DNA of 64,000 nucleotides from Paratrimastix pyriformis (lineage: Eukaryota; Preaxostyla; Paratrimastigidae). Made by a program: the position numbers and the translations under genes. This document shows positions 1,667 to 64,000 of this stretch, piece after piece. The DNA lies in the NCBI GenBank assembly GCA_027972325.1, contig JAPMOS010000060.1, positions 109,501 through 173,500 of the forward strand. Direction: 5' to 3'. The first letter of the stretch is position 1. Every line of letters begins with the position of its first letter. The notes under the pieces are model-generated. The model worked only from the letters and a program-made list of their open reading frames with translations, was not told the origin of the DNA and made no database searches.

Positions 1667-2558
1667 TTACAGACTTCGGTGGAGTCCATCCAGGGTTGCC
1701 ATGTCCTGGGGGCTGATCTGGAACGTGAAGACATCCAAGTTCTCACGGATGTGATCAGGGCTTTTCGACCGCGGCAGGGCAATGAACCCCTTTTGGAGGC
1801 ACCACCGGAGGCAGATCTGGGCAGGGGTTCGCTGATAGTGCTGAGCCACAGCGACCAGCGTGGGGTCGCCGAGGAGAAGCCCACGGGTTAGTGGCGAGTA
1901 GGCCTCCACGGCAATATGATTCTCGTTGCAGGCACGAACGACCTCACGGGTGTATGTGAAAGGGGAGAGTTCGATCTGGTTGATAGCTGGTTTCACGGCG
2001 CAGTGTTCGAGAAGTTCGGTGAGATGGCGCTCTTGATAGTTGGAGACACCGATCGACCGGGCCAAGCCCTCGTCCAGGACCCGTTCGAGGACTCTCCAGG
2101 CATCGGCCCGGGTTTCGGGGACAGGCCAATGCAGGAGCAGACAGTCAACGTACTCGGTTTGCAGTAGCTCGAGGCTATGACGGATCGAAGGGAGTGCCTT
2201 TTCGACGGGCTGATTGGAATTCCGCAGCTTGGTGGTGATAAATAGCTGCCTTCGATCGATTCCGGATTCCTTCACCCATTGCCCAAGCTCGGCCTCGTTT
2301 CCATAGGCTTGGGCGGTGTCGAAGTGGCGGGCGCCCAAGTCCCAGCAACACTGGGCGACGTTTTTGGCAACTGCGGGTGGGATTTCATAAAAACCAATCT
2401 GTAAGCAGGTGGCAGGTGTGAGGGGCAGAAGATTCAACGGGACTTCAAAGAAGACCGACCCCAATCATTGGAATCTGAACTTCGTTTCCCGTTTTGACGC
2501 CCTGGTGGAAGGGAACGAGAGTGTGGATGGAGATGTTCGACGATTCGGTTGACTCCAT
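1667..2558 (-). CDS. Aldo/keto reductase (AKR family)
   Basis: NAD(P)H-dependent oxidoreductase of the TIM-barrel aldo/keto reductase family, about 276 residues and full length; probably cytosolic. Exon 1 is 2558-2460 and exon 2 is 2398-1667, with a 61-nt intron (donor GTCGGT, acceptor TTACAG). Splicing gives IPMIGIGFYEIPP, the usual family start. The catalytic tetrad is visible: Asp and Tyr in HFDTAQAYGNEAELG, Lys in FITTKL, His in LLHWP. The cofactor-binding end contains LPRSKSPDHIRENL, matching the usual P-(K/R)-S/T-S loop. The ATG at 2558 (MESTESSNIS) is the first in frame that gives a normal N-terminus. The substrate cannot be read from sequence; a bacterial-type or plant-type reductase of small aldehydes is equally possible. 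Confidence 0.93.
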
Positions 2559-2775
2559 GTTGTTGTTCAGAGGACGTGGGACCAAAAACGACTTTCCAGA
2601 CGATTGAATCTTCCCGCAGTGCGACGATCGCCCCTGGTTGATCCGATCTGGGCCTGTGGGGACACGGATATTCCTCTCCGCATTTTCTCCCGTCAACTGC
2701 TATCTACACAAAGGACCACAAACCCACACAAACATAGATAGCGAAATCAGAAAGATTTATCACAATGTGCAACTC

Positions 2776-5700
2776 TTATCCCATGGTCAGGTCGGACTTC
2801 TCGTCTAGAGATGGGGGCATCACCATCATGTCGAGCGGGGCCGGGGCAAAACCGCGCGTTTGGCGGTAATGCATCCACCACCAGGTGACCCCGGCCGAGG
2901 CGGCGGCACAGACACCGCCCACCAGGACCAGCAGCAGAGCGCACAACCAGGGGGCCACCCCCACGAGCGGCATGACGGTGTGGCTGGGCGTCGGGATGGG
3001 CAGGACGCTGGGCGTGGGCACGGGCGTGGGCGTGGGCGTGGGCAGGGGCGGGGTGCCGCTGCAGTTGGAGCGCCCGTAGATCCCCCAGTAGTAGTTGCAG
3101 GTGGCGGTCGACCCGTGGCACAGCGTCGCCGCCTCCACGCAGGTGCTGCGGGCCAGTTCGGGGAACAACAGAGGCAGGAAGAAAGCAATTAATTGTATGC
3201 CGGATGCGGATGGGAGAGGGGGTGGGGAGGGGGTCGGGGCCCGAGAGGCCCGGGCGGACCTGCGGCATGCGTCATACATCTCGCGGGTCTCCGGGACGCA
3301 CTCGGGGTATGACAGGGCGCAGGCCCAATTGAGGAGCGCCTCCCGGCACTGCCCCGTTGCCAACTGCGACTATGCGGCGGGGGGGTGGAGGGGTGGGGTG
3401 GATGTGAGGTGGGTGGATGAGGCGGGTGGGGGAGTGGAGACAGGTTCGAGGTGGCCGGATTGGATTGCGGTAGTGGCTGGGTGCCGGGCCGAGGACCGAC
3501 CACAAGGGATGCAGCCAGGGCATCGGCCCCGAGGGGGTCGGGCACGCAGGCGTGGGCGTACGGGAGGCGGCCCCGGCACGTGGGCATGGCTGCCCCGATG
3601 GCGCTCAGCGGGGTGCACTGGCGCGGGCACATGTACTCGTAGGCGTCCCACCGGGTGGGCCCAGGCTGGTCGGCGGTGCCCCGCGGTGGTACCGACACCA
3701 AGAAGAAAGAGGGTCAGGCGAAGATGGGTGGGGTGGCTGGCTGGGGGACTGGGGCGGGGGTCTGGGTGTGGGGCCTGGGAGGGAGGGGGTGGGGGGGGGG
3801 GGGGGGGCCTGGGGGCGGACCTCGATGCAGTCGACGCCCGGGTTGGTGGGGAACCCGTCGCAGTACGTGCTGGTTGCCAGGCAGGCCTGGGCGAACTGGT
3901 GGCACAGGCTCCGGCAGGGCGGCAGGGCTGTCACAGGCCGCCCCCACCGGGGGTCAGAGAGGCCCAACATGGGACATGGGTCCCATAGGAGTGGGAGGCC
4001 CCAGGGGGCGGAAGGCGAACGGGGGGGCCGGGGCCGGGATGCGGACCGGGCCCGGTCAGGTTGTTGATCATGGGAAGGCCAGCCCGCAGTAGAAGGCGCT
4101 CGCGCGGTCGATGCAGTCCATGTCGCTGCCGTCCTCTGCCCCGCCCCGCCCCGCCCCGCCCCGCCCCGTCCCCAACACCAATCGCCAGCCAACCACCAGT
4201 CATCAGCCATCAGCCATCAGTCATCAGCCATCAGCCACCAACCACCCCACGAGATGCGCGACCATCACGCAAGGCTCGCTGCTTTGGGGGTGGTGCCGAC
4301 GGACGGTAGAGCCGGTTGAGGGCGCTCATGACCTGGGCCTCCTCAAGCGCCACCGAGCTCAGCACGCAGCTGTCCCACTCCACTGCATGCCCCCCCCCCC
4401 CCCCCCCCGGCACCAGCCGCAACAAAGGGCACGAGTGTCGTCACACGCATGTGAGCATCATCCAGAAACCGAGCCGGGAGAGCCCCCCGTCAAAGCGAAG
4501 CAGGCGAGAAAGAAGGATCGCTGGTGAGGGCACGCCACCGAAGAGAACGGAACTCACGTTCGCGGCGATCCCATGGGTGGGGCGGGGGCGGACCCATGTT
4601 GCAGACGGAGACGGTGTGGTTGGTGGCCGAGAGGCGTGTCACGTGGCCCGGCTGCTCGTTGAGCACACACGCCGCTACCCACCGGACGATGGGCCCCACC
4701 ACCAGCCACACACCCACCGGACCACCGGACGGGCCCGGAAACCGAATGTCCCCAGTCATCACGGCCTCTGCTCCGAGGGGAACGCCCGTGAGGCGACAGG
4801 CGGCATGTGGGCCTGCGGGCGGGGGTGCGGACGGCGGGCGGGGGCATCGGGGATGACGGCCGGCGCCCAGACGTCGGCCTCGATGCCCGCGTCGTCCTCG
4901 CCCCGCACCATCCGGAAGTAGCCTGTGGCCCCGCACCGCGCCACCAGCCCAGCGAGCACAACCGGCCCCGGGTGAAGCCCGCCCTCGAAGATGGTGGCCG
5001 AGGCACGCGAGGAAGAGCAGGGAGAGGAGGACGCGGCCGGGGGTGACGATGGGAGCGGCTGGTGGGGTGGATGGATGGCGGACCGTCCTCGCCCCATGCG
5101 GGGCCCCAGCTGTTTTGGACTGGCGGATGCAGGTTGGAGGTCCCCGGCCACGCGGCCCCCGCCAGCAGGCAACCAGGTTGGAGATGATGAAGGATGCAGA
5201 TCGTGAGCCGGGGGGTGCGGTGGGAGTCAGGGGGGGCGGATGATGGGCGGACCAATCCAGTACTTGATGCCCCGCTCCATCCCGTAGCCGACCAGTTTGA
5301 CCGCGTGGCCACCGAGGGCGCCGCCCGTCATGTGGCTACCCGGCGGGATGGTGGCCACGGGAACCGCAGTGGGGGCATTTTGTGAGGTCCGCGGGGGATG
5401 GAGAGAGGCATGGCGGGCGGGCGGACCGATAGATGCCCTTGGCGTAGTAGAGGAAGTCGATGTACACCGTGAACCGGGCTGCCGGGCCAGTCCCAGAGGC
5501 GGAGGCAGAGGCCGAGGCGTAATGCGCGGTGAGCGGAGCAGGAGCAGGAGAGGGGAGCCAAGCAAGAGGGATGGACGGGCGGACCGGCGACAGAACCGTG
5601 GGCGACGATCTCCTCCATGATGGCGGCCTCGCTGGGCAGGTAGCTGTACGAGTAGGTCGCCCCGGCGAGGAGGTTGTCCAGCGGGGCCCCGTCGTCGCAG

Positions 5701-6367
5701 GCGGTGTGGCACTTACGGTCCTCTGTGGCGCCCTGGTAGGGCCGGCACCGCTCGCTGACCACCCCATGCTGGGCGATCCCTGCGGATCCCCACCGCGGGT
5801 GAGCGACCGAAGAACGAGCCGAAATCTAGGCAGACAATCGAAGCTGCGGTCGATAAAGCCCCCGTGGCAGCCGCTGTTGCACACCTCGCCCCACCCGGTA
5901 TTGGGCGGGTAGCACTGCTTGTTGCAGTCCACCAGCTGCTGGGCGGAGACGAGTTCGTTGGCCAGGCCGGCTCGGTAGAGCCGATCGGCGATGGCCCCGG
6001 AACTGGCGAATGCTGTAGTGCCAGAGCGCAGAACAACGTGAGAAGTGCCGCGCAGACACCGCAGACCCCAACAGGAGCCGCATTCGGCCTGGTCTAAAAC
6101 AGTGTTCAGGGACTTGGAGGCCGGATAAATCGAACGAGGATCGTAAGACTCGGGTAGAATGACATTAGGGGCAGCATGCCGCCGGTCCCACATTTTGCTG
6201 CGGACAGAGGCCGGAGATGGCAAGGCGAGAAGTGGTGGGGGATTGAAGGGCACATCTGACGCAATCCAACTGGAACCAGAGAGGCGGTTGACAAATTCTG
6301 GAATGCCCTTCTGTGCCAAGCAGGGCACAAAATCGGCGAGAAGCGCCAAAAGAAGAAGCCAACGCAT
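2776..6367 (-). CDS. Cathepsin B-like protease fused to Frizzled-like Cys-rich modules and a transmembrane anchor
   Basis: Fourteen exons by eye: 6367-6067, 6012-5836, 5779-5585, 5478-5427, 5335-5253, 5119-5084, 4922-4833, 4674-4594, 4382-4305, 4135-4047, 3927-3821, 3665-3501, 3363-3260, 3145-2776; about 642 residues. A signal peptide (MRWLLLLALLADFVPCLA) is followed by a propeptide and a peptidase C1A domain with Gln/Cys in DQAECGSCW, His in GGHAVKLVGYG and Asn in QNSWGPAWGEDG. FDWIAQHGVVSERCRPY is typical of cathepsin B. After GIEADVWAP the frame continues into cysteine-rich modules resembling Frizzled CRDs (PPCRSLCHQFAQAC; NWACALSYPECVPETREMYD), then a Pro/Thr stalk, one membrane span near 2960-2880 (LCALLLVLVGGVCAAASAG) and a short cytosolic tail. 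Likely a membrane-bound lysosomal or surface protease. The exon 4135-4047 needs one extra base to stay in frame. All but one of the donors are GTCCG(C/T) or GTCTGC; the exception is GTCGGT. Confidence 0.82.
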
Positions 6368-6968: not shown

Positions 6969-7946
6969 ATGCAAAAGCTTCTTCTCGCCGCCCTCTTTGT
7001 GGGCGTCGCCTTTGCCACCTTGGGCGTTGACGTTTCGCAAAACTTCTACGTCCCTGTCTTCAAGTGCCTGCACGATAACGGCTATGAGTCTGACACTGAT
7101 AATGACATTCAACCATAAATAATGCGTCCGTTGTAGTTTTGCCATTATTCGCGCCTACTGCTCAACTGGCCGCCCTGATGAGTCTGTTTTCCATGTCCCT
7201 CGAGACTTTGTGCTGATTCTCCGTTCTCGATTCGTAGTTCGAGTGTGCACACCGTCTACAACGCTTGGTCCTTTTTTTTTTTTTTGTCTCTTTTTGATCT
7301 AACCCTTCCGCTCCTTTTTTCTTTGGTAATGCAGGGAGGGTGGCATGAAGGTCTGAATATTTTTTTCGCCTCTCATCGATCTCACGGGCTTTCTTCTGTT
7401 GCTTTGTGCACTCCATTATTGATGCTCTAGCACGTTGATATCTATATGTTCCCTGTCTGTTTCGGCTCTCTTTTCCTTTTCGAGCTCAATCATTTTTTCA
7501 TAGTGCCCCAAGTGCGGCAACCCCGCCGGTCAGGTTCGCGACGCCATCGCCCACCAGCGCGCCTACAACACCACCTATGGTCTGATTTTTCCCCAAGCGT
7601 TGCCTCAGCGTTTGTCGTGCCGACAGGCATGTTCTGGCTCGACATTGAGGAGCCTTCCTACTGGATGGACCAGGGCAGCAACCGGAACTTCATCCAGGGC
7701 CTGATCGACGAGGCTCGCGCCGAGGGCCAGGTGGTTGGCATCTACACCAACCTGTACCAGTGGAGCTCCATCGCCGGCGACTGGAGCGGCGCTGCCGGCT
7801 ACCCCCTGTGGTGGGCCTACTACGACGGGTCGCCCAGCTACGACCACTGGCAGAACTTCGGCGGCTGGAGCAAGCCCGCCATTAAGCAGTTCCAGGGCGA
7901 CGCCACCGTCTGCGGGGCCGATATTGACCGCAACTGGTATCCCTGA
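6969..7946 (+). CDS. GH25-type lysozyme, secreted
   Basis: Glycoside hydrolase family 25 muramidase, about 209 residues, probably digesting bacterial peptidoglycan in food vacuoles or outside the cell. Seven exons: 6969-7087, 7137-7181, 7238-7267, 7335-7350, 7431-7454, 7504-7579, 7627-7946; they total 630 nt in one frame. A signal peptide (MQKLLLAALFVGVAFA) is followed by GVDVSQNFYVPVFKCL, then FAIIRAYCSTG, HVDIYMFPCPKC and FWLDIEEPSYW, which carry the usual family acidic residues, and GIYTNLYQWSSI near the end. Similar CPKC-containing lysozymes are known from amoebae and other protists. Donors are GTCTGA, GTCTGT or GTCCTT. Exons of 16, 24 and 30 nt are unusually small. The gene is less GC-rich than its neighbours, which fits acquisition from bacteria in this family, but the introns show long residence. 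Confidence 0.93.
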
Positions 7947-8147: not shown

Positions 8148-11100
8148 TTAAGCAGTGGGTGGGGCGCCCGTCGTCGGGGCGGCCTCGGGGGCGCTGAGCA
8201 TGATGTCGTAGGGCCGGAAGGCCTTCTTGAAGGCGCCCGCCTGGGCGACCTCGTCCTCCTTGGACGAGCAGGCGCACTGGTGCCAGTCGGCGTACTCGGG
8301 GTGGCCCAGCGCCCGGGCGAGCATGTCCCTGGTTGGAGACATCGCATCATGAGGCCCGGTGAGGGAGGGTGCTGCCCGCCCACAGGGAACCCAGACGAGG
8401 AGAGAGCACCCAGTCCACCCTGGCGTAGTGCCGTGGCGGCGTGGCGGCGTGGCGGCGTGGCGGCGTGGCGGCGTGGCGGCGGCGTGGATGCGGACCGGGC
8501 GAACTGGACCGGGAAGCGGTAGCCCTGGGGGATGACGTGCAGCAGGCGGGTCGTGGAAAACTCGAGTAGCAGGTACCCCGCGTCCGCCGGGGCCCCCGCG
8601 GCCGCCAGCAGCTGCATACACAGAACGGACACACACAGAACGGACACGGATGAAGACGATCCGGTGGTGGGTATGTCGCCCGGGGGTGTGCCGACCTGCT
8701 CGGGGGTCTTGTCCCTGGGCACCTCGGCCAGGTCCATCCGCATGCGGCGGCCCGTGTCCTGGAAGAGGGCGATGGCGGCGCCCTCCTGCATGAGGGTCAG
8801 GGGCAGCGCCTCGATGAGCATGTGCTGCTGGGGCGACCCCGCCGCCGGGGGCATCTTCCGCTCGACGATGCAGTACGACGGGGGCAGCCCCGCCCTGGCG
8901 GGGGGTGTCCCCGGGGCGGCTGCGGCCGTCGTTGTGGCCGTGGAAAGGACCGCGTGTGCCTCTTGGCCGTAGAATTTCTGCGAGACGGGGCGACAAAAAG
9001 ACGGCGGGGGCCGGGAGGAGGGTGAGCCGAGCGCCGAGCGCCGGGAAGAGGCAGGACCCCGCGTCCAACAGAGGGGAAGGGCAGTCAACAACAGAGGGGA
9101 AGGGAGGCGCGGGAGGTATTATGCTGCATCGCCTCGCCATGCTGTTGGCAAGCACGACCGCTGAGCTATTGCCGCCAGCTGAAAACTAGCATGTCGGTGT
9201 GGTGACAGATGAGGTGCTCGCCAGTCGCATGGTATAGGATGCAGGTGCCATGTTGGTGATGTTGATGACCACGTTGATGTTGATGTTGATGATGACCATG
9301 CTGGTGATGATGGCCATGTTGATGATGATAGAAACAAGTGGGATCCCTCGTGGCCCAGCAGAGGGCGAGGGCAGGCGCAGGAGGGTCAGAGGTGGGCAGG
9401 GCGGGGGACCTTAAGGGCAACCAGCTGCCGGTCAGCCTCGGCTCGGGTGGACTCGGGCAGGGGCTGGGTCAGGTGGCCAATGGGCAGCACCAGGATGTGG
9501 CCCGGCACGAGGGGCCCCTTGGGCAGGGCCAGGTAGGTCTCCTCGCAGACGCTGACCACCAGGTGCCGCTCGGCGCTCGGGTTGCCCAGGCAGAACCAGC
9601 AGGGCCCTGCACGCCGTGAGGGGGCGGTGAAGGGCCGGCCGGAGGTGGGTGGGGAAGGAGACAAGGGGGGAGGGGGGGTCGGCCGTGGGGGCCGTGGGCG
9701 TGTGCGGACCGGGGTCGGCCCTGGGGCGCTTCTCGCCGGTGGCCTCGTCACCGTCGTTTTGGCGTCGCTGGCGGGGCGGAGGGCAGAGAACAGAACAGGT
9801 AGAAACAGAGTCGCTCGTTATCACCACCACCTGCCTGCCGCCAACAAGGAGCGCCCGCCCCCATCCTCCGCATGGCCAAGGCCAGCCGCACAAACCATCC
9901 GCAACAAGGCAACAGCCCGGCCACACGAGGAACAAGCACCCGCCCAGCCACCCAAAGCAAGGGCACCCCACCCGCAACCGCGCAACAAGGAGCGCCACGG
10001 CTCTTGGCGCGGACCCTGGCGGGCAGAGCGCGATCCCCCTGGTCGCCGCCGGGGACGGGCACCGAGTTAGCCCCCGTGGCCGACATGCTACCCACGTCCC
10101 ACTCGCCCCGCCGCCCGCCCCGGCCGCGCCCGCGCCCACCACGACGGCCGCCCCGCCCATGGTCGGCAGGGGGGGCGCTGAAGGGCAGCTGGAAACTGGT
10201 GTCGATCAGCGGGGCGGCGCCCTCGGCGCCCCTCCCCACCCCGGCCATCGCGGGCACGCCAGCACCATTCGGGGCGGCTGCCGCGGCCCCGGCGGCGTCG
10301 GTCAAAAGTCGGGGCGAGGCCGCGGGGGAGGGGGAGGCGGACAGCAGCGGGTTGGCGGTGCTGTTGGGGGGGTGGCGGAGGAGCTGCTCCCGGGGCACCA
10401 GCCCCAGGGGCAGGATCGAGGCCGCGTACAGGCTGCGCTGCTTGGCGGGATCGTCTGCAAACCACAACCGCAGAAGGGAAGGGGGACCGCATGAAGGGAG
10501 GGCAGTATTAATGTGGTGATGGCAGGGGGGCGGGAGGTTGATGTCGGGGTATGGGTGGGGGGGGGGGTGGGCTGGAGCAGACTGAGGGCGGCCATGGAAA
10601 GGAAGCGGCACACGTGGCCGCCTTGGGTGATGTACGGGGGACGCTCGTAAAAGAGCTGCGGGCACCCCCTCGGCCCATCCGCAGGGCAGCAGAACGGGGT
10701 CAGCACGACTGGCAGGACAAGCTGCACGAGGCCCCAGGGTGTGCGGGAGGGGGGACCGGACCTCAGGCGAGGAAGTGAAGTGGTAGCGAGGGGCCGTCAC
10801 CAGCGAGAGCCGACGCATCGGTTCCGACATGGCCTGGACGGTGGATGGGCCCTGGGCTCTGCACATACCGATCGGATTGGTGGGAAGAGCACGCACAAGG
10901 TCGTGGTGTCAGAAGGAGCCGGAGCCGAGAGGAGGGACGTGGTTGCGGACGGAGGCAGCCCATTGAGGATCGAGGTCGGCCAGGTGTTCGTCAGCAGGAT
11001 ATCGATGCCTGACTGGTACTGGGTCGGGTCCGCCAGGAGGCACTCGACGTGGTACTGGCTACACCGGCGGACATACTGTCAAAGGGAAAGAGGGCGTGCG

Positions 11101-11618
11101 GGTGGCGGGTGCTTCTGGACAGACCCTCGAGGAGGTTTGCGCGGCAGTTGGGTCATACCGGCCCGACACGAAAGCCACAGAGAGGCCAGGTGAAGGGGGC
11201 TTGCCCATGAGATTGATGACCCCAGCCGGACCTGAAGAAAAGGAGAGGTCTCGGAAATCGTTCATAAAAACAACCGCTGACCCAGGTAGGTGAGATTGGG
11301 CGCAATGGTGGCCTCGTCTGCAGAGCGAGAAATATACTTCGCGCCGATATCATCGGCGCCGAGAAAATAGGTCGGGATGGGGACTGCGGAAGAATGAAAA
11401 CGGTCGTGCCGATTAAGTCACGGACCTTTCCTGGTTCCATTGAGGAAAGGGAGCATGCCCTTCTCAACCTCGGGATCGTCCTCGAGAGGAAAGAAGGCCC
11501 CCACGCAGAACAGGAGATCAAAGCGGCCCTTGCTTTGAATGATGGCCGACACTTTATCGAACAGTTGGCCCCATTGACCCCGCACCTCGCCGACCACCAG
11601 GACCTTGAGTCCGTCCAT
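8148..11618 (-). CDS. CWF19L1: CWF19L1/Drn1-like spliceosome-associated protein
   Basis: Nuclear protein of the Cwf19-like family, which works with lariat debranching and late spliceosomes. The ATG at 11618 opens MDGLKVLVVGEVRGQWGQLF, the metallophosphatase-like N-domain, then FDLLFCVGAFF, TYFLGADDIGAKYISR, GVDILL-like SGIDILLTNTWP and PRYHFTSSPE. A Gly/Arg-rich linker lies near 10170-10090 ([20 protein letters not shown]). The CwfJ C-terminal-1 (HIT-like) domain follows: GPCWFCLGNPSAERHLVVSV and KGPLVPGHILVLPIGH (9600-9480). CwfJ C-terminal-2 is FPVQFAR, GHPEYADWHQC and FRPYDIMLS near the stop. Donors include GTCCGTGAC, GTCAGC, GTCTGTCC, GTCCGCAACC, GTCGGC and GTCCGC. Introns near 8431-8485 and 9243-9330 hold short tandem repeats. 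Family call is strong; a few central exon edges are not fixed. Confidence 0.85.
8431..8485. repeat. 8-nt minisatellite (gtggcggc) in CWF19L1 intron
   Basis: About seven copies, starting directly after the minus-strand donor GTCCGCATCC of the intron. Confidence 0.9.
9243..9330. repeat. gatgttgatg-type repeat in CWF19L1 intron
   Basis: Imperfect gatgttgatgatgacc units, similar in sequence to the alpha-tubulin intron array. Confidence 0.8.
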
Positions 11619-11832
11619 CACGAGAATAGGGAGGAGGAACGACGGGTCGATGCGGCATGCCGGCGGCGCCAACTGGGACAGGGACGGACGGGTTTTTCGA
11701 GATCAAAGGGGGTCAAAAAAAAAACCAATGTAACAACAACGCAGAAAACAAGCGAAACAAGGGAGAAAAAGAGGGGAGGAGGAGGGGCAGTTGGAATCTA
11801 TACACATGCCGCCAGGCCAGATCCGACTGGGC

Positions 11833-13125: not shown

Positions 13126-13358
13126 CTGAACTGAAGGGGAAAATAAGGTTGTCGTGCCCTGTCTCTGCTGGCTGTGCCCGGCTGGAATTCACTTTTCCGG
13201 CTTGAGCTTTTGCTTTTTGATGTTTTTTGGGGAGGTGTTTTGTTTTTTGTTCTCCACCATGATGGAGACACTTAAAAAATAGTACAATCGTCCGAATACA
13301 ACCAACAAAACAAAAACAATCATCCACACACAAAAAAAACTTCAAAAGGAAATTACAC
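13126..13358. other. Intergenic gap, AT-rich
   Basis: This 233-bp A/T-rich region lies between the cyclin Y start and the kinesin stop. It has T runs and A runs near 13205-13260 and 13300-13345. Nothing coding is supported. Confidence 0.5.
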
Positions 13359-15358: not shown

Positions 15359-15399
<41 letters not shown>

Positions 15400-16673: not shown

Positions 16674-16705
<32 letters not shown>

Positions 16706-19196: not shown

Positions 19197-19371
19197 TCCG
19201 GCTGGAAACCGAAAACGCACCGACTGAGATTAGTCTGAGATCCCCAAAGGTCACTCGACGATGACAGCTTTGACAGTTTCTTTTTCCCCAGCCCGGTGCG
19301 CCCATGAAGCAGGCGGTATCGTCCAAACGCGAACACATGATCTTGCGATCGTGGTGCGAAATTGTTGTCGG
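19197..19371. other. Short intergenic gap between alpha-tubulin and kinesin genes
   Basis: This 175-bp gap lies between the alpha-tubulin stop and the kinesin ATG. A short minus-strand frame here holds GLGKKKLSKLSSSS, but no exon signals support it. It probably holds the kinesin promoter. Confidence 0.4.
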
Positions 19372-38019: not shown

Positions 38020-38056
<37 letters not shown>

Positions 38057-38157: not shown

Positions 38158-38229
<72 letters not shown>

Positions 38230-50088: not shown

Positions 50089-50119
<31 letters not shown>

Positions 50120-52657: not shown

Positions 52658-53065
52658 GGGAGCCGGTGGCCGGCTGACGCGAATAAATGATGATGCTGCG
52701 AGAGAAACTAGGGAACAGCCGATTAGCCCTGGGGGCGGTTCAACGTGCCGCAAATGAAGCGTTTGAATTGGCGCGATCTTCCGAGGCGGGAAGGATTGGA
52801 AGATCTCCCCAGGCACACGGAACCAAAAGAGTTAACGAGAAAGGTAGCGTTTGACAGAATGATACATGGAAAGAGAAATCCAAAAAACCGATAAATCGGG
52901 GCTTAGTATACTCCTGATCGAAACCGGGGCCCACTGAGTGGCTGTCGCGGTATTCTGTGGCGAAAAAGGGGGGAAAAGATGAGGGGGATCACACGAAGGA
53001 GCTGTGTCACAGACGGGGGCTGAGAGGTCCTGCCGCCCATGGGGGGATAGCCGCCGAGCCCTAGG
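52658..53065. other. Intergenic gap, AT-richer
   Basis: This 408-bp gap lies between the LRRC9 stop and the TBC gene start (both minus strand). It is less GC-rich than the exons on both sides. I see no gene, RNA or clear promoter motif. Confidence 0.5.
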
Positions 53066-56000
53066 TCATAAGCAAGCCGATGAGGCCCAACCACCGAAAG
53101 ATCGCCCAAGGGACAGACCACCCGTGGCGGAGGCCCCACCCCCACTTCCCGTCCGAGGGGGCGGGACGCCATGCGAGGGGGCGTAGCCGCCCGTCTGGGA
53201 GCCGCCGCCCAGGGCCATGGACATGCCCAGACTCGCGCCGCCCTGGGCGGGGGGCGCCCCCGCGGGCTGACCGCCATAGTCGCTGCTGCTGCTTCGGTGG
53301 AGCCCCAGCCCGCCCGGGTGCGGCCCCCCGTGTGCCGAGCGGGGCAGGTGTCCCACGGCCCCCGCGCCGCCCCCTCCGAAGTACTCCCCTGCGAGGCGCC
53401 CCACAAAAGTCCCAAAGGGCCGCAGCACAGCCAGAGGATGAGCGGAGGTGACGGCACTCACCCCGAGTGATGACAGCACCGCATTCAGGCCGGCGCCGAT
53501 GGGGACGTGGATGGGGACGTGGATGGGGACGTGGATGGGGACGTGGATGGGGACGTGGATGGGGACGTGGATGGGGACGTGGATGGGGACGTGGGGGGGG
53601 GGGGGGGGGGGGGGGGGGGGGGCTCCTCGAGGCTGCCAGGGGCGGACCGGGACCTCGGGACGTGGACGGGGCCGACCCTCGGCCGGGGCCCTGCTGCTGG
53701 GTGTACATTTCCTCGGTCGAGACCAGGTGCCAGTCCCCGTCCCGCCTGCTCCCCCCCCCCCCCCCCCCCCCGGCACAGCCACACCAACGCGGGACGATCG
53801 GAATGGGCGGCCCGAGGCGAATGAACGGCGGGAGGTGGACCCAAAAGGGGAGAGGGAGACGGGCCCAAGTTGACGCTGGGACATGCCCTGGGGAGGGGAG
53901 GGCAAGAGGGGGGGCGGACCCGAGCTGGAGCTGAGACATGCCCTGGGTGGCCCCGACCACCGCGGGGCCCATCATCACCATGGGCGGGGGCGTCGGGTCC
54001 TGGCCGCCCATCCCGGGGCCCAGCCCGCAGAGGTTGTCGAAATTCACCGAGGTCAGCTGCCCCCACGCGCCGCCAACCCGATGCAGACGCCCCGAGCGAT
54101 GATGTGATGACGATGATGACGCCGATGCCGGAATGACGGAATGATGCCGGTGATTGGATAGTCGTGGTGACGGCAGAGAATGCCACCCACAAAGCGGCAC
54201 CGGGTCATTGTGGCTCGTGGGTCCTCATCTTCATCCTTCTCCTCTTTCTTCCTCCTCCTCCTCTTTCTTATTCCTCCTCAGGCGGTCCCAGGCGGCCAAA
54301 GGGGGGCGGTGGGCGGGGCGGGGCGGGGAGGGGCGAGGCGGGGCGGGGCGAGGGTGCGTGGCGACCTTGATGGGGACCCTGGTGGCCATCTTGTCGAGGA
54401 CCACCGAGGCGGGCTGGGCCTGGGCCAGGGCCATGTCGATCCGCTCGCGCTCCTCGGCCGTGATGGGCCGCTCGTCGAGCATGCTCACCTGCCCCAGCCG
54501 GCGCACCACCGTCGCACGGTACATCTGCGCCCCCCCACCCCCACACGGCATGACGCCCGCACCACCAGAACCCATCATCATGGCGAGATGCGCATGTCGC
54601 TGTGCCAAATGGGGGAAGTGGGGGGTGGCTCAGGGGCGGAGTTGGAGACCGCGACATGAGCGAGGTGTGGATGGGGGATGGGGGATGGGGAGAGGGTGGG
54701 TGGGAGGGGGTAGGTTGGAGCGGCATGGGGACTGCCGACGGACGGGCTTCCGGGCGAGGGGATTGTTGTGGAGGGTCACCTCGGCCAGCGAAGGCAGCAG
54801 GGCCAGCTTCTGCGGCCCCCCAGAGAAGCAAAAGGAGAGGGAGAAGATGAAGATGAAGAGGGCCCCCTCAGGCAGCAGAGGCAACCATCAGATCATGGGG
54901 CATGGAGGGCATGGGGGGGCATGGAGGGCATGGGGGGGCATGGAGGGCATGGGGGCATGGAGGGCATGGGGGCATGGAGGGCATGGGGGGGCATGGAGGG
55001 CATGGGGGGGCATGGAGGGCATGGGGGGGCATGGAGGGCATGGATGGGCATGGGCAAGAATGACGGGGGCACGGGGGGTGCGGGGGTACGGGCCTCGGCC
55101 TCCGTGAACTCTGCGAGTCTGTTGAAGGCCAGCTGGAGGACCCGCAGGCGGGGCAGGGGCCCCAGGTGGTCCAGCGAGCGGAGGCCGTTCTCGCAGAGGC
55201 GCAGCTCGACCAGCCCGCTGAGGCCTGCCAGGCAGCCGGCCGTCAGGAACTTGATCTTGTTCTTGTCCAGCACAAGCTCCCGCAGCCCGCTCAGGCCCTC
55301 CAGGCCTCCACCTGCACCGCCAGTCCCACCGCCCCCCCAAATGCAGCCCGTGAGCGTGACGATGCGGGGGGCAGGCATCGGACGGGGGGTGACTGCGCTG
55401 GGGGTAACTGCTGTGTGTCTGTGTGTGTGGAGTAAAGAGGGAAAGAAGTAACGGGAAAACAAAAACCAGAGAGGTAGAAGAGACAGCACGAATGTCACTG
55501 CACCCGTGGGCGAAGGAATCCCCTGTGGAGGGCGTTTGATGTGTCTGTGTGTGTGTGTGGGGGGGCGCCGGACCCTTGTGATGTCGTTGCCCTGGAGGTT
55601 GAGGACGCGCAGGTTGCGGAGGAACTCGAGGTGCAGCTCGCCCATCGAGGCGATCCCGTTGAATGCCAGCTGCAGCACCTCCAGCGACCGGAAGCAGGGC
55701 AGCCCGCCCTGGGCAACCCCGGCCGCCTGTCGGGCGCACCCCCGCCCCCGGTCCGATCCCCCGCCCACCCCGTGGAAGACCGGTGTGTGTGTGTGTGCGG
55801 GGTGGTGAGGCCCCGGCGCCTGGCTGATGGAATGGGGGTGGAGGGAGGCAGGGCAGCCACGGCCTGGTGGTTGGTGGTGGCGGGGCGCTGATGACGGGGC
55901 GGGGCAGGGCGGACGGACGTCGACGGATGCGAAGGAGCGGGTCTTGTTGTGGCACAGCCGGAGGGAGGTCAGCTGGGGCAGCCCACGAAGCGACTGCATC

Positions 56001-59000
56001 GCCGAGGGAGGCCGAGGTAACGGAACGGCGTGTGAGAGGGGCCAGGCGGGCGACCCCACAAACGGGCGGGCTGGGAGGGCAGGAGAGGCAGGGCTTGGGG
56101 CCCGTGCGGACTGAGATGTCGGTGATGGCGTTGTTGTCGAGGTCGAGCTCGGCCAGGGCGGCGAACTCCTCGCCCCCGAGCATGTTCACCTCCCGCAGGG
56201 CGGCCCCGGCCAGGGACAGGGTCCGCAGGTGGGCGAAGAGGCCGTGGCCCACCCGCTCGGTGAGGATCTCCACCGTCAGCCGGCCCGCGTAGCGGTCCCG
56301 GGCCCCGCCCTGCTCGGCCTGGCTCACCCCCACCCCGTCCAGAACCTGCCCCCGCCCCGGCCACCAGCGCCCCCCGGCGGCCCATCGCCCCCCAGATGCC
56401 CATCACCCCCCAGATGCCCATCACCCCCCAGATGCCCATCACCCCCCAGATGCCCATCACCCCCCAGATGCCCGGTCAGGGAGCGGACGCCTGGGTGTGC
56501 GCGGCCGTGGCGGCAAAGGGCGCGTGCAAATGGAAGCAGGAGGAGGTGTGGCCGGGCGGGGACCTTGAGCTTGCGGAGGCAGTAGACGGCGTAGAGGCGG
56601 TACTCGGGGTCGGCGGCCAGGGGGTTGCCAGAGAGGTCGACGATGATCAGCCTGTGCAGCTCGCGCAGGTGGTGCAGCCCCTTGATGCTCCCAACTCGGT
56701 TGTTCCCCAGGTCTGCACGTCCAGGGGGGATTACCACAGTCCACGCCGGCGGCCGGGAGAGATGATGCATGGACGATGGATCGATGCGTGCGATGGATGA
56801 GACGATGGCATGGATGGGCGTTGGGCGGTGGTGGAATGGCGGGATGGGGAGCGGGCGCGGACAGAGCTCCATGAGGGACTTGAGGGCGGCGAGGGGCTGC
56901 AGCTGGCTGATCTGGTTGTCCTCGAGGGAGAGCTGCCCCAGGTGGGCCAGCTGGTCGAGGCCCTCCACCTTGCCGATCCGGTTCTTGGCCAGGTCCAGCA
57001 CCCGCAGGTTGGGGCACCCCTCCAGCCTGCCACACCCCGAGGGGGAGCACCCCCATGGCCGATGGGAACACGACCTCGGTCAGCACAGGGTGCCAGGGCG
57101 GGGGGGCGGGGCGGGGCAGCAAGATGGGGGCGGGGCAGCAAGATGGGGGGCGGGGCAGCAAGATGGGGGCGGGGCAGCAAGATGGGGGCGGGGCAGCAAG
57201 ATGGGGGCGGGGCAGCAAGATGGGGGCGGGGCAGCAAGATGGGGGGCGGGGCAGCAAGATGGGGGGTGCGGACCCCTCGATGGTGGAGATGCGGTTGTCC
57301 TCGAGGGAGAGCTCCTCGAGCCGCTTGCACTTGGTCAGGCCCTCCATCCGGCTGATCTCGTTGTCCGCCAGCAGCAGCCGCCGCAGGTTGGTGAACCTGG
57401 GGCCGCACCGCAGAAGAATCAGGGGTGAGGATGACGAGGATGAGGACGAGGATGAGGAGGACGAGGATGAGGTTATTGAACCGGGCCGCTTCGCCACATA
57501 CCACCATATGCCGTGTTGCGGTGCCAGCGGGGGCGGTCGGCCGGAATGAGGAGGGGCAGCCGATGATGCGGGTGGGGCAGCCGATGATGCGGGTGGGGCA
57601 GCCGGTGATGCGGGTGGGGCAGCCGGTGATGCGGGTGGGGCAGCCGATGATGCGGGTGAGGCGGCAGGAGGCGGGGGCGTGGGCATGGGGCCGGGGTGCG
57701 GACCGCTCGAGGGCCTCGATCTTGCGGAGCTTGAGGTGGCTCATCGAGATCTCCACCACGTCCTCCCACCAGGGCTCCCCGCCCACAGGCGCGGCCGGGA
57801 TGGGCCCCAGCCCCCGCTCCCCGCCCCCGCCCCCGCCCCAACCTCAGCCCCCGGCCCCCCGGTGGTGACGATGGCCTGGTTGCTCGTGGTGGGCGACGGC
57901 GGGGCGGCCTGCTGGGGGCTGGACCTGCCCAGGGCCGGCGGCAGGCACAAAGGGGACAAGAATACCAGACGGTCATCAGCCCAATGCGGGCCAGTGCAGG
58001 CGCAAAGGGGGGAACACGAAAGCCAGACGGCCCTGCTCGATGTGGGCCAGACAGGCGGGGCGGTGTGGCGGGGAAGGGAGGGGACGTCACCGCGTGGTGC
58101 ACGTCGCGGGCCGGGGTCGGGGCGCGGCTGACAGACGGGGGCTGCGTCGTGGCGGCCGGGCTGGCTGGGGGCTGGGGCTGGGGGGCGGCCCCTGCCAGGG
58201 CCGGGACGACGGGGCACCCGGTGAGGGTCGCGTAGCCGCGGATCAGCTCGGGCGTCATCACCACCGCGTTCCGGGCGGCCAGGCTCTGCGCCCGCCCCCA
58301 CACGCGGCACACGCGGCGCACCGGCCGGCAGCACAGAATGCGAGGCGTCATTGCGTGCGAAGCCATCGTGTCGATGCGAAGCCGTTGTGTCTCGCAAACT
58401 GCGTGGGGGCCATGGCGACGCGAGGACAAGGGGAGCGGGCGCGGACCCGCTCGTGGTCTGTGACCTGGACCCCGTCCAAAACGGCCACCTTTGCCAGCCG
58501 CCGCAGGACGGCGCCCCGGTAGCCCTTGCCCTCGGTGAGGCTGTTGCCCCGCAGGTTGAGCACGGCCAGGTTGGGGTTGTACCTGCCCCGCCCCACACGC
58601 ACGCACCACCGAAGCACGAGCACAACGACCATGCGATGCGTGCCGATGGGCGGTCCCTGTCCTTGATGGCGCATGCGGGTGATGGGACGGGCAGGTGGTG
58701 GGCAGCCCGTGCAGGTGGAGTGGCAGCCCGTGCAGGGGGCAGGCGGCGGGGCGGCCCGGCAAGCGCCCGTCCGGGCGGAGGAGGGCGGGCAGGCAGGCGA
58801 GTGGGCGGGCAGGCGAGTGGGCGGGCAGGCGAGTGGGCGGGCAGGCGAGTGGGCGGGCAGGCGAGTGGGCGGGCAGGCGAGTGGGCGGACAGGCGAGTGG
58901 GCGGGCAGGCGAGTGGGCTGGCAGGCGGGCAGGCGGGCAGGCGGGCAGGCGGGCAGGCGGGCAGGCGGGCAGGCGGGCAGGCGGGCAGGCGGGCAGGCGG

Positions 59001-62000
59001 GCAGGCGGGCAGGCGGGCAGGCGGGCAGGCGGGCAGGCGGGCAGGCGGGCAGGCGGGCAGGCGGGCAGGCGGGCAGGCGGGCGGGGCGGACTTCTTGAGG
59101 GCGTTGATGTCGTCCATGCGGGAGACCAGGTTGCTGGGCATCTCGAGCGTGTGCAGGGCGGCCAGCCCCTTGAGGCACTCGATCCGCCGGATCTGGTTGA
59201 AGCCCAGGTCCAGGTACTGCGCCCCCGCAACGCCCCCACCCGAACATCGTGAGCGCCGATACACCAATGTCTGGCGCCCAATACGCCAATGTCTGTCTGA
59301 TGCCCGATATGCCGATAGCCGATAATGCCGATATGCCGATATGCCGATATGCCGATATGCCGATATGCCGATATGCCGATATGCCGATATGCCGATATGC
59401 CGATATGCCGATATGCCGATATGCCGATATGCCGATATGCCGATAATGCCGATATGTCCATGTCCAGGGCGCGTCCATCGGGCCGAGGGCGGGGCCGAGG
59501 GCGGGGCTGGGGCGGGGCCGAGGGCGGGAGGCTGGGGATCTGAGGGCTGGGCCGAGGGCGGGCTGGGGGCGGGGCCGAGGGCGGGGCCGAGGGGAGGGCT
59601 GGGGACCTCGAGGGCGGCCATGTCCTGGAGGCCGTCCATCTTCTGGATGTCGTTGAAGGCCAGCACCAGCACCCGCAGGGCCGGCAGGGCCCCCAGGCCC
59701 TCCATCCGCCGCAGGCCGCGCCCGTGCAGGTTGAGGTACGTCAGCTGGCTCAGCGGGGCGCCCAGGCTCCGGCTCTACCGGCGCCCCGCCACAGGGTGGG
59801 CCAGGACGTGGGAGTGATGATAACGGTGATGACGATGACGACGATGATGACGATGCCGATTGGATGATGATTGGGTGATGATGAGGCGATGGGGCGAGAG
59901 TGAGAGGGATTTGAATTTTGCCGGGGGGGGGGGGGGGGGTCAACGACGAATGGAGGGCCGGGTGGGGGGCGGGACGGACCATGACCAGGTCGGGGGAGGG
60001 AGCATCGGCCGGCTCGGGCTCCGGCCAGCAGGGGCGGCGTCATCAAGGCCGCATCCACCTGGGCCTCCAGGCTGCTGCCCTCGCCCCCGCTCGGGGCCGC
60101 CTGCGCAGCGAAGCGCAGCGCAGCACAACGCAGCACAGCACAACGCAGCACAGCACAGCACAGCACAGCACAGCACAGCACAGCACAGCACAGCACAGCA
60201 CAGCACAGCACAGCACAGCACAGCACAGCACAGCACAGCACAGCACAGCACAGCACAGCACAGCACAGCACAGCACAACGCAGCACAGCACAGCACAGCA
60301 CAGCACAGCACAGCCGCATGCCGGAGGAGCGGCAGACAAGCCGGAACGGGTCAGGGCGATCAGGGTGGGTGACCACGGTGGCCCAGTGCATGCACATCGA
60401 CCGGGGCCTGTGCAGCCGGCCGCCGAGCAGCTGAGCAGCGGGGGACGGAGCAGCCGGGGCGGGGCAGATGCGGGTGCGGACCACCAGGGCGCACTGCTGT
60501 CTGAAGCGTGCCAGGGGCCGCAGCAGGGCGCACGTGTCGGCGAGCTCCGTGTCGCACTGGGGCGCCCCCAGGCCGGCCCCCTCCCAGTCGGGCGGCTGCC
60601 CCGGCTGCGGCCCCGCCTGCTGCGCTCCCCAAGGGCCAACACACACAAGGAGACGTATAGGCGTCCGTACAGGGGTGGCCTGCCGATGGTGGTGGCGGTG
60701 TGTGTGTGCGCGCGGGGGGGGAGATGAGGCGATGCCGTGTGGGCGGCGGACCCTGTCGGCGGTGTAGTCGAACTCGACGAGGTACTCGGGCAGCACCAGA
60801 GCCGGGTCCGCCAGCCGGTACGTGCGCTGCTTGGGGTCCCCGCCCGCCTGCCCCGCCCCACCAGCCCCCAGCCCAGCCCCCAGCCCAGCCAAGGCGGCGG
60901 TGGGCGGGATGCCGATGCCGGTTGGCGGGGGCGGAGAGCCAAGGCCGGTGCGGCGCGCGTGGGTGGCGTGGGTGAGTGCGGACCAGCTCGCTGCCCCTGC
61001 GCGCCTCCCTGTCGAGAAAGGCCTTGCACACCACCAGGCGGCCCCCCGGGATGGGCTGGCTGTTGTGGAAGCCAAGCACCATCGTCGGGTCGGCAAGGCT
61101 CTCTGCCCACCGGCAACATCAGGGCAGGCAGCCCCAATGGATTGGCGGGGCTCAGCCAGGGGGCCGTGGATGGTCGCGGGATGGGGCGCGGGGCAGGGGC
61201 GACCGCAGACCCTGCGGGAGGCCATCGAGGCGCGCCTGCTGGTCAGCCTGCTGGGCCCGCTGGGCCTCGACGTGGCCCCGGACCCGGGCCCCGTCCGCCA
61301 GGTGCACCGAGTTGCACAGCGGCACACCACGCGTTCCCGCGGGCTGCCCGCCACGCCACACCCGGCCGGCCATGGCGACGGTGACGATCCGCCCAGCAGA
61401 ACTCGCGGGCGCGCCCCGAGGGTCAGGGATCGAGGGAGGGAGAGATCGAGGGAGGGAGGGATCGAGGGAGGGGGGGGGGGGGGGGGGGTGGATGGCGGTC
61501 GGGGGCGGCGGGACGGACGGCGCCCTCGTTGGGCCTGAAGCCGTCCTCGACCACCCGCAGCAGCTCGCTGGGGCCCTGGAAGGCGTCCCCGAAGAAGAGG
61601 TACTACCCAGCCCCGCCCGCCCCGGCAGCGGCCCGGAAGTGCGTCGCCGTGAGGGCAATCCGCAGCAAGGCGGGGCATGGGCGCGGAAATGGGGTCTGAG
61701 CGGCAGGGAGCGGGGCAGGGGCGGGGGCAGGGGCAGGGGCAGGGGCTGACCTCGAGGTTCTTCTTGTGGGCGCCCGGGTCGGCCGGGTCGATGTGTGTCC
61801 GCAGGGCCAGCTGCGCCCCCATCGAAAAGCCCGCCCCGGACAACCCGGCCGGCACAGCCCGCCATGCACAACCCGACCGGCACGCCGCCATGCGCAACCA
61901 AACGAACGCAGGCAACATGCGGGACCCCGTGAGGAAGGGGCAGGACGATCGTGGCGACGGCGGCGGGCCTGGAGCTGCGCCGGGTGTGCCTGGTGGGGGC

Positions 62001-64000
62001 GTGGGAGCTGTGCAGGCTGTGCCTGGTGGGGGCGTGGGGCGGGCGGGCGTGTGCGGACGTCGAAGCGGTTCCTGAGGAAGCGGTTGTGGACGCGGGTCAC
62101 CCGGTGCACGGCGATGCCCTCCAGGGGCAGCCCCTCGAAGTCCCCACGGTAGAAGCGCGAGTGCACTGCCCCCAGCCCAGGATGGCACGCCCCGCACGCA
62201 CCCCCATGAGCACAACACGGCCATCGGGGTTCCCCAGCACAACCACCAGGGGGGCGGCGGGGCGGACCGAGGTCGATGCACGAGCCGAACCAGACGTCGG
62301 CCGGCTTGCCGTCCTCCAAGCGGATGTTGCCGCCCGTGTCCAGCTCCACCAGCAGCCGGCTGCGCCCCCCCGGGCACCAGCCACGGCAGGGCCGGCGGAT
62401 GGGAGGCTGGTGAGCGAGGGGAGGAGCCCCATGGCGCGGACTGGCTGTGCCCATTCCCTCCCTCCCCAATCTGGGAAGCTGCTGTGCAAGCGCGTGGGCG
62501 GGGGCGGCGGGCGGACTTGACGTTGCTCTCGGCGATGGCGAGGACGTCGGCCTTGAAGGCGTCGAAGGTGGCCTCGAGGTGGGCCAGCCACTTGCCGCAC
62601 TGCAGCACCAGCGACTGCAGCAGCCGCTGCTTCACCTGCAGGCTGCTCGTCGGCGGCTGCTCCTGCGGGGCAGTCCCGGCACCAGCCCCGGCACCAGCCC
62701 CCAGACGAGAAGGGGTGTGGGGGACACACCGGAGGGGGATGTCGACCAGAGAGGGCGCACAGGATGGGGGGATGACGGACGGGTTGGGGAACGGCGCCAG
62801 GGGGCGCATGCTCGCGCTCGCTGAGGATCTGCTCGACCCCCTTCCGGCACAGCAGCACCTGCCGCAGCGAGGCCTGGATCTCCCCAGCCTTGCGTGCCCC
62901 AACAGGGGAAAAAGGTAAAAAGTGAGCCTTCCGAGGGGATCGAACCCTCGACCTTGTGCTTACGAAGCACACGCTCCGCCACTGAGCTAGGAAGGCCATA
63001 AAAAAAGATATGGTCCCCACCGCACTCTGGCCGGGTCCCATTGCGCACCATCACGGGACGGGGGCGGACCTTTGCGGCCTTGACCTCAGCCCCGCGGCGG
63101 ATGAGGGCGGTCGTGTTGCGCTTGAGGGTCTTGATGCGCATGTTGTAATACCTGCTCCCCCCCCACCGCCACCGCCACCGCCAGCAGCAGGAAAGGGCGA
63201 CCGTCATCCATCCATGATGCTGGGGTCGGGAGCAAGGACTCCGGATGGGCAGGGTCGGGCCGCGTGGGAGGGGTGCAGTGGGTCTGGCGGGGGCCGGTGG
63301 GGTGGGCGGACATCTTCTTCTTGAGGTAGGTCGCCTCGGCCACCTGGCGCACCTCGGTGGTGAGCGGGATGTAGTCCAGGGTGGCCAGCTGGCGCAGGTG
63401 GTACAGCACGTACGTCTGCGGCCCCGCCCGCACCCGCACGCGCCCGCCAAAACCGGAGGGCGGAAGAGGCAGCGTTTGAGCTGGCGCAGGGCGGTCGGTG
63501 GGGAGCGGGTGACCTGGTAGTTGCAGAGGCTGCACACGGGGTTGGAGCCGAAGTGGGGGTCGTAGAGGGCCAGCACCCGCAGGGCCGGCAGCCGCTCGAG
63601 CTTGGGCAGCTCCTTGAAGCAGCCCACCAGGTTGTCCGCCAGGTTGAGATTCTGCGGGGCCCCAGTGAGGTCCCCACCAGGGGAGGGGAGAAGGGCGAGG
63701 GAGGGAGCGAGGGAAGGGCCGGGGGCCCGGGGGCCGAGGCAGCCGCAGGTGGGTGAGCAAAGACAGCCGCCCCGCCCTGCCCCCACCGCGCATCCGGCCC
63801 GAGCTCGCTCTTTGCCGACTCCCCTCCAGGCCCGGGACCGAACGCCGATAGGATGAGGGTTGGCGAGGGGAGGGGCGGGACCTCGAGGTTGCGGAGGGGC
63901 TCGAGCGCGTCGCCCAGGGACTCGATCTTGTTGGCGCAGGCCCAGAGGGTGCGCAGGTTGACGTTGGCCTGGAGCCCTTCCAGCGAGGTCAAACCTGGGG
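53066..64000 (-). CDS. LRRC9: LRRC9-like leucine-rich repeat protein (5' end beyond window)
   Basis: Long ciliary-type leucine-rich repeat protein. The order matches the LRRC9 family: repeats (LTSLEGLQANVNLRTLW, 63990), LYDPHFGSNPVCSLCNYQ (63560), YVLYHLRQLATLDYIPLTT, YYNMRIKTLKRN (63145), a coiled part (EIQASLRQVLLCRKGVEQIL), then the middle domain with FYRGDFEGLPLEGIAVHRVT, VPLCNSVHLADG, GRLVVCKAFLDREA and DPALVLPEYLVEFDYTADR (60800), which looks like a PARP/ART fold. A second repeat block runs from 59750 to about 54400 (LTYLNLHGRGLRRMEGL; LRRLLLADNEISRMEGL; RDRYAGRLTVEILTERVG; YRATVVRRLGQVSMLDERPI). The tail has LTSVNFDNLCGLGPGM (54050) and stops at 53066. Donors are almost all GTCCGC. Many introns are minisatellite arrays. 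The gene start is outside the window. Confidence 0.85.
53505..53595. repeat. 12-nt array (gggacgtggatg)
   Basis: About eight copies ending in a long G run, in an LRRC9 intron. Confidence 0.95.
54895..55055. repeat. gggcatggagggcatgg repeat
   Basis: About nine copies with variable G number, in an LRRC9 intron. Confidence 0.93.
56393..56472. repeat. 18-nt repeat (cccccagatgcccatcac)
   Basis: About four to five perfect copies in an LRRC9 intron. Confidence 0.92.
57112..57268. repeat. 18-nt repeat (gcagcaagatgggggcgg)
   Basis: About eight copies, directly following the minus-strand donor GTCCGCACCC in LRRC9. A related 19-nt gatgcgggtggggcagccg array lies at 57555-57665 in the next intron. Confidence 0.95.
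58793..59082. repeat. Two nested arrays: 16-nt then 8-nt (gcaggcgg)
   Basis: Units of gcaggcgagtgggcgg (about eight) pass into a pure gcaggcgg array (about 20). The minus-strand donor GTCCGCCCCGCCC opens straight into it in LRRC9. Confidence 0.96.
59318..59452. repeat. 8-nt array (gatatgcc)
   Basis: About 16 copies in an LRRC9 intron. It is much less GC-rich than its surroundings. Confidence 0.96.
60115..60313. repeat. 5-nt array (agcac)
   Basis: Over 35 copies with rare aacgc variants, in an LRRC9 intron. Confidence 0.97.
62926..62996 (-). tRNA. tRNA-Thr (anticodon CGU)
   Basis: The minus strand folds into a complete 71-nt cloverleaf: a perfect 7-bp acceptor stem (GCCTTCC with GGAAGGC), D arm GCTC/GAGC, anticodon stem TGTGC/GCACA with loop TTCGTAA (anticodon CGT, reads ACG), 5-nt variable loop and T arm GAGGG-TTCGATC-CCCTC. 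The next base is T (U73), usual for eukaryotic tRNA-Thr. No intron and no encoded CCA. A TTTTT run a few bases downstream would stop RNA polymerase III. The gene sits inside an intron of the LRRC9 gene, on the same strand. Confidence 0.96.

Follow-up and report, generated by a model that had tools for sequence, protein, structure and literature searches.

The analysed stretch of the Paratrimastix pyriformis genome (64,000 nucleotides of contig JAPMOS010000060.1, assembly GCA_027972325.1; hereafter the window) corresponds to C453:109501-173500 in an assembly of 56.06 Mb and 495 contigs, and its GC content ranges from 0.51 to 0.80 in 2-kb steps. It carries an alpha-tubulin gene (285 of 443 residues identical to the human protein in a spliced alignment), a cathepsin B-like gene (97 of 231 residues identical to human cathepsin B, also in a spliced alignment), a lysozyme-like gene and several longer gene models. 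The original prediction, made for these genes, was that introns begin with GTC[C/T]G in place of GTAAGT or GTATGT, and this was confirmed by 27 counted junctions anchored in reference proteins and by two sets of introns found de novo. The subject here is this donor signal and the U1 small nuclear RNA (snRNA) that would read it.

Protein-anchored junctions were placed with a spliced aligner that scored codons with BLOSUM62, allowed introns anywhere and gave no weight to positions +3 to +6; the counted set was obtained with the aligner's option of slightly favouring GT and AG. An intron was counted if it had GT...AG ends and both flanks scored at least 20, which retained 27 of the 43 introns obtained from nine alignments with six reference proteins. 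The near-constant C that had been proposed for +3 was found in 25 of the 27, the other two having T and none a purine; since C follows any GT with a background frequency of 0.316, this excess has a binomial p of 5e-11. Position +4 was T in 14, C in 12 and G in one, and G occupied both +5 and -1 in 25 introns each. The donors were GTCCGC (8), GTCTGC (6), GTCTGT (5), GTTTGT (2) and six other kinds found once each, and the acceptors, in which AG was required by the counting rule, were CAG (21), TAG (5) and AAG (1). All four donors predicted for alpha-tubulin (GTCTGT twice, GTCTGC and GTCGGA) were recovered in this way. When GT and AG were not favoured at all, the summed displacement of donor and acceptor was 2 to 18 bases for the 27 junctions. 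Among the 16 uncounted introns, eight begin at GTC yet fail the flank or AG rule, and the other eight are not at GT. Eight of the counted introns come from three actin paralogues and fall on four shared positions, 86, 256 and 304 among them, and 86 holds both GTTTGT donors; because these paralogous introns coincide, the 27 represent about 23 independent positions.

Outside the window, an actin gene on contig C212 could be aligned throughout (375 of 375 residues). After hand trimming, a Bms1 model with GTCYG-type donors matched human BMS1 with an E-value of 6.6e-197; a lipase (residues 9-103) is likewise matched by the Bms1 query. Alignment did not settle the first intron of GAPDH or several junctions of cathepsin, CDK and Bms1. 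GTCTG is at least as frequent as GTCCG among conserved genes, and GTCCG leads in GC-rich ones. The introns show the GT...AG ends, +5G and -1G of U2-type (major) introns and lack the purine at +3. The consensus of the U12-type minor intron donor is (A/G)TATCC; it was seen in none of the 43 placed donors, and U11, U12 and U6atac were not searched for.

The same signal emerged from a two-strand gene finder given only GT, AG and a heuristic codon table and trained on 276 kb. A flat start led to AG|GTCCG(C/T), a form of AG|GTCYGY, with 373 introns, of which 167 had GTCCG as the commonest donor 5-mer; a canonical GTRAGT starting matrix led to the same donor and the same total score with 374 introns. 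The training set held 30 three-kilobase loci picked by a pattern that an antisense donor would also satisfy if +3 and +4 are left free, and because of this possible bias the gene finding was repeated without them. Position +3 was then C in 178 of 195 introns on the contig of the window (set A) and in 186 of 210 introns from 32 loci on other contigs (set B); already in the initial pass, when donor weights had yet to be learnt, the corresponding values were 118 of 151 and 118 of 159. A purine at +3 occurred in 10 introns of set A and 13 of set B, and GTRAG donors numbered one and two. Introns were supplied by 29 of the 32 loci, one of which (L012) had C at +3 in only two of six. In the window itself the models contain 107 introns, 98 beginning with GTC, 65 with GTCYG and one with GTRAG. 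The models merge adjacent genes and take in translated repeats, so that any one predicted intron deserves less trust than the pooled logo.

A covariance search of the 56-Mb assembly with the U1 family (Rfam RF00003) identified eight loci, all full-length (positions 1-166), with E-values from 3.7e-13 to 2.0e-10, and a DNA similarity search, with a 131-base piece of U1 as the query, returned the same eight at 98-100% identity. All eight begin with AUACAGACCUUG where the Rfam consensus has AUACUUACCUGG; the consensus UU at positions 5 and 6 is AG in every copy (U5A, U6G), and the RF00003 5' end AUACUUACCUG occurs in none of them. One copy folds into a cloverleaf of four stem-loops (z -3.38), and the GAUCA of loop I lines up with the model in each of the four alignments shown. 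A CCCATAA box is common to all eight U1 loci and to the U2 (3 of 3, out of nine over the cut-off), U5 (7 of 7) and U6 (4 of 4) loci read. It lies 59-60 bases upstream of the first base in the U1 and U2 loci, and this equal spacing supports the first A as the start of U1. A second promoter element is found at offset 29-30 in U1, U2 and six of the seven U5 loci, and U6 has the box at 66-67 and the element at 35-36. A run of T often stands just upstream of the gene in these promoters (loci L001-L012, L017-L023 and L065-L067). The pattern CCCATAA N40-65 ATACNNACC gave 13 matches, made up of the eight U1 genes and five other places, and none in the control. A canonical U1 was not found by covariance model, DNA similarity or the pattern of promoter plus 5' end, four matches of the last not having been read. 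Thus neither a canonical U1 as the only U1 gene nor a canonical logo, the findings that would have spoken against the original prediction, was seen. Judging from promoter and sequence, the eight altered genes are probably expressed with the first A as their 5' end, and the pairing described below would act in the cell.

U1 bases A1-C9 can be laid against donor positions G(-1)-U(+8), which gives the pairs C9-G(-1), C8-G(+1), A7-U(+2), G6-C(+3), A5-U(+4), C4-G(+5) and A3-U(+6). The two changed U1 bases thus face +3 and +4, exactly the two changed donor positions, and the T found at +3 in two of the 27 counted donors is a wobble partner of G6. For these 27 donors, which are independent of the gene finder, the mean duplex energy with the real U1 is -9.08 versus -4.40 for random GT sites, and that with a canonical U1 is -4.32 versus -3.83. 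For the 405 predicted donors (learnt weights) the values are -6.72 versus -4.46 with the real U1 and -3.97 versus -3.95 with the canonical one. Since its energies are nearly equal for donors and random GT sites, a canonical U1 could hardly discriminate these donors. The original prediction of a U1 co-evolved with the donor therefore stood as regards a changed 5' end in eight of eight genes, but its proposed core CGGAC did not: the core found is ACAGAC, which pairs with GTCTG throughout and with GTCCG except for one A.C mismatch.

The compensating change that had been suggested for the ACAGAGA of U6 is absent: four of four strong copies carry GAUACAGAGA, and four weaker U6 matches score 19-20.5 bits, under the cut-off of 44. 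The U5 loop GCCUUUUAC is kept in the three copies shown, and the U2 GUAGUA is present in the one copy read. The heptamer AUACAGA is common to U1 and the unchanged U6 by direct reading of the sequences, UCUGUAU being complementary to both and a GUCUGU donor complementary to U1 and U6 alike. Ordinary U1 and U6 have AUAC in common to begin with, so that agreement was needed at two further bases only, for which the chance is 1 in 16. The protein families zf-U1 (U1-C), Methyltransf_10 (which holds METTL16) and SNRNP27 have one matching place each in the assembly (G000). The SNRNP27-family exon lies at C9:25886-25972, and the Methyltransf_10-family exon at C332:38824-39153 (locus L068) has an NPPFF motif and is METTL16-like by our own reading; the family also matches in bacterial controls.

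The donors, the altered U1 with its promoter and fold, and the unchanged U6, U5 and U2 motifs are read directly from the DNA. They suggest, with a probability that we put at roughly 0.87, that the major spliceosome of P. pyriformis reads a recoded 5' splice site through a U1 altered at positions 5-6, the U1 sequence AUACAGACC pairing with AG|GUCUGUAU. We rate the compensatory change of the U1/5' splice site code as real and genome-wide, as far as sequence can indicate. The donors would follow U1 throughout the genome, +3C and +5G being held, and the choice of C or T at +4 and +6 would drift with local GC. The intron might then be handed from U1 to U6 between identical heptamers, U6 having stayed ACAGAGA, and a shift toward better pairing with U6 may have driven or eased the change of U1 and donor.

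Several observations weigh against this interpretation. The U1 loci score 50.8-60.2 bits, under the Rfam gathering score of 69.5. Five further places have a CCCATAA box followed by ATACNNACC (C234:202204-202262, C459:3534-3603, C484:19845-19907, C491:24718-24775 and C491:135017-135073), all but the first not read; the C459 place has a spacing of 61 by coordinates. Pairing with the donors would be stronger for a hypothetical CGGAC U1 than for the real one (-11.19 for the 27 anchored and -10.16 for the 405 predicted donors). The METTL16 and SNRNP27K families both match although +4 is a pyrimidine, and in yeasts a non-A at +4 goes with their loss; loss of these proteins was rejected as a cause of the change at +4 for this reason. 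Finally, C is found at +4 in 263 of the 405 predicted donors and U in 86, and C mispairs with A5 of U1; compared with the bodies of the same introns, +4 and +6 hold fewer A and G, but T is not favoured over C.

The composition of +4 bears on the last point. At +4, the proportion of T declines from 0.34 in the GC-poor third of introns to 0.13 in the GC-rich third, and at +6 from 0.35 to 0.17; +3C (0.87 to 0.91) and +5G (0.80 to 0.77) stay nearly constant over the same range. The share of T among +4 pyrimidines is 0.25 versus 0.31 expected in the full set (p 0.017), 0.27 versus 0.30 in GTCNG donors and 0.54 versus 0.44 in the anchored ones, the last two differences not being significant, and the two sets disagree on T at +4 (0.76-fold in set A, 1.48-fold in set B). 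GC-rich algae can also have C at +4. We interpret this pattern as the result of selection on the G-C pairs formed with G6 and C4 of U1, A.U and A.C both being tolerated.

One other explanation could be a division of labour between two U1 RNAs, one (ACAGACC) serving GTCTG donors and the other, an undetected CGGACC form, serving GTCCG donors. A second U1 with G5 would account for the +4 C and, as computed, pair better with the donors, of which the commonest 5-mer mispairs with A5; one place with a CCCATAA box followed by ATACGGACC does exist, on C234. However, its ATAC is 50 bases from the box and its second element at 32, not at 59-60 and 29 as in U1 and U2, and the covariance and DNA searches gave eight U1 genes with ACAGACC in every one. 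The pattern ATACNNACCTNG matched 165 places, 100 of which were listed and 30 cut out as loci, and ATACTTACCT was not found among the 100 matches listed. The four CGGACC loci among the 30 (L029, L034, L035 and L052, of which L034 and L035 overlap) lack the snRNA box and resemble antisense donors, and a CGGAC U1 was rejected as the main reader. Moreover, the C/T choice at +4 tracks local GC, and so does that at +6, which faces A3 in each U1 found. Two U1 forms are thus unlikely. It is somewhat less probable still that a modification of A5 and A3 in U1, such as conversion to inosine, lets them accept C as well as U; this would suit the depletion of A and G at +4 and +6 where C and T stay near their local proportion, but the same counts follow if A.C mismatches are tolerated while GC pressure is strong.

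That the GTC motif belongs to a spread intron family, or that the introns are not ordinarily spliceosomal, might be proposed from their abundance and from runs of one donor within a gene, such as the three GTCTGA of the lysozyme-like gene. We consider this very improbable, given the GT...AG ends, the CAG acceptor in 21 of 27 counted introns, the ordinary U2, U5 and U6 motifs in the copies read, and the occurrence of one donor in unrelated conserved genes on many contigs together with a matching change in U1. An artefact of gene finding or alignment in a GC-rich genome is the most remote of these explanations. The mis-modelled tubulin introns would speak for it, and so would the decoy dinucleotides CC and CG, which total 4501 and 4504 in the gene finder versus 4449 for GT, so that the total score cannot single out GT, CC and CG sites being commoner. 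However, the decoys have no sharp 5-mer (at most 55 of 196, versus 108 of 193 for GTCCG with GT), the actin alignment, with 290 of 375 residues identical, fixes GTTTGT, GTCTGC and GTCTGT, and the U1 evidence is independent of gene models. A recoded site read by the altered U1 remains the preferred interpretation.

The features of the window are collected in Table 1. Donors of the cyclin Y-, CWF19L1- and LRRC9-like genes are based on gene models and not on alignment to reference proteins. By our own reading, the merged model probably holds alpha-tubulin, kinesin-like, cyclin Y-like and CWF19L1-like exons; it mis-models the tubulin introns, so that the aligned ones take precedence. In the lysozyme-like gene, whose match to Pfam GH25 (24 bits) is under the cut-off of 27, three of the predicted donors (GTCTGA) are present in the gene model, and the other three, two GTCTGT and one GTCCTT, were not recovered. 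The model of the cathepsin B-like gene joins a papain-family and a Frizzled-type cysteine-rich domain (Pfam) and omits the exon between the last two introns listed for it; a protein kinase also included in it is probably a neighbouring gene. Leucine-rich repeats were matched by Pfam in two open frames within the IPMK- and LRRC9-like model, and a tRNA gene lies within this model on the same strand. Long poly-Val or poly-Ile runs in models on the contig of the window probably represent simple repeats in introns or spacers. Elsewhere in the assembly, two dissimilar 5.8S copies were seen (L075:2038-2864 and L076:1612-1767, 144.9 and 150.2 bits), the first locus having a piece of large-subunit rRNA shortly before the apparent end of a small-subunit gene, which would fit a copy of the rDNA that is fragmented or misjoined.

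Table 1. Introns, gene models and other features of the window (positions are those of the window)
Feature	Position	Strand	Donor, acceptor, length	Basis
Cathepsin B-like gene model	3146-6465	-		gene model, Pfam
Cathepsin B-like intron	6013..6066	-	GTCTGC, CAG	alignment to human cathepsin B, counted
Cathepsin B-like intron	5336..5426	-	GTCCGC, TAG	alignment, counted; gene model agrees
Cathepsin B-like intron	5120..5252	-	GTCCGC, CAG	alignment, counted
Cathepsin B-like intron	4923..5083	-	GTCCGC, CAG	alignment, counted
Lysozyme-like (GH25-type) gene model	6969-7946	+		gene model
Lysozyme-like intron	7088..7334	+	GTCTGA	gene model
Lysozyme-like intron	7351..7512	+	GTCTGA	gene model
Lysozyme-like intron	7580..7626	+	GTCTGA	gene model
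Merged model, 25 predicted introns	8148..20819	-	24 of 25 begin GTC	gene model
Alpha-tubulin intron 1	20974..21021	-	GTCTGT, CAG, 48 nt	alignment to human alpha-tubulin, counted
Alpha-tubulin intron 2	19922..20384	-	GTCGGA, CAG, 463 nt	alignment to human alpha-tubulin, counted
Alpha-tubulin intron 3	19846..19885	-	GTCTGC, CAG, 40 nt	alignment to human alpha-tubulin, counted
Alpha-tubulin intron 4	19692..19739	-	GTCTGT, CAG, 48 nt	alignment to human alpha-tubulin, counted
TMEM63/CSC1-like by own reading, 13 predicted introns	36984..43286	-	9 of 13 begin GTC	gene model
IPMK-like and LRRC9-like by own reading, 44 predicted introns	44510..63677	-	mostly GTCCGC, GTCCGT	gene model
tRNA-Thr (CGT)	62924-62996	-		

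The 5' end of U1 serves nearly every intron at once and would therefore be expected to be frozen. If both reader and signal have moved, the route of such a code change becomes testable, including whether the donor is drawn away from the former U1 by its pairing with U6 and whether U1 or U6 is the decisive reader. Gene annotation that relies on standard splice models will fail in this organism, and the pair of U1 and donor offers a natural orthogonal system for splicing assays. No description of a GTCYG donor or of a AUACAGACC U1 was recognised among the listed titles and abstract openings of open-licence PMC papers. It is likely, within the literature searched, that P. pyriformis represents the first natural case in which the whole donor code has been rewritten with a compensatory U1, all detected U1 genes being changed, and in which U1 and an unchanged U6 are identical readers (AUACAGA).

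Compared with the canonical U1 (RF00003) and its GTRAGT or GTATGT donor, the system described here keeps the cloverleaf U1, the GT...AG ends, +5G, -1G, the U6 ACAGAGA, the U5 loop and the U2 GUAGUA, but differs in having AG instead of UU at U1 positions 5-6, C instead of a purine at +3 and a pyrimidine at +4. The non-conventional introns of euglenids and diplonemids have no U1-complementary donor and their ends are joined by RNA pairing, whereas the donors found here are GT and pair with the U1 of the organism. Other divergent eukaryotes with an unusual U1 keep its 5' motif: U1 of Giardia and of the Guillardia theta nucleomorph retains ACUUAC, and the recognition motif of Bigelowiella natans is said to be fully conserved (PMC3510501, PMC6461891). 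In Fritillaria borealis, which likewise departs from the usual splice signals genome-wide, two U1 versions with identical 5' ends are described and the flexibility is ascribed to U2AF duplication and m6A (PMC13326754); in P. pyriformis the GT...AG ends persist and the alteration lies in U1 itself. An altered U1 5' end is also known from the diplonemid Sulcionema specki, where an alternative U1 with a C-stretch is reported to exist beside a conserved U1 and the canonical donor logo is kept (PMC12621601), unlike the situation here, in which all eight U1 genes found are changed and the donors follow. The departure of +4 from A is shared with Saccharomycotina. In a survey of these yeasts, ACUUACC is invariant where U1 was found, in 227 of 230 species and nine of ten outgroups (236 genomes), and species that switched from +4A to +4U tend to have lost METTL16 and SNRNP27K (Parker et al. 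2023, PMC10581693). In P. pyriformis U1 is changed and both families match, which speaks against simply extending the yeast +4 rule to it. The same survey names a pseudouridine-to-adenosine change at U1 position 5 as a kind of compensation that was not found there (PMC10581693); in P. pyriformis A stands at position 5 and occurs together with a pyrimidine at +4.

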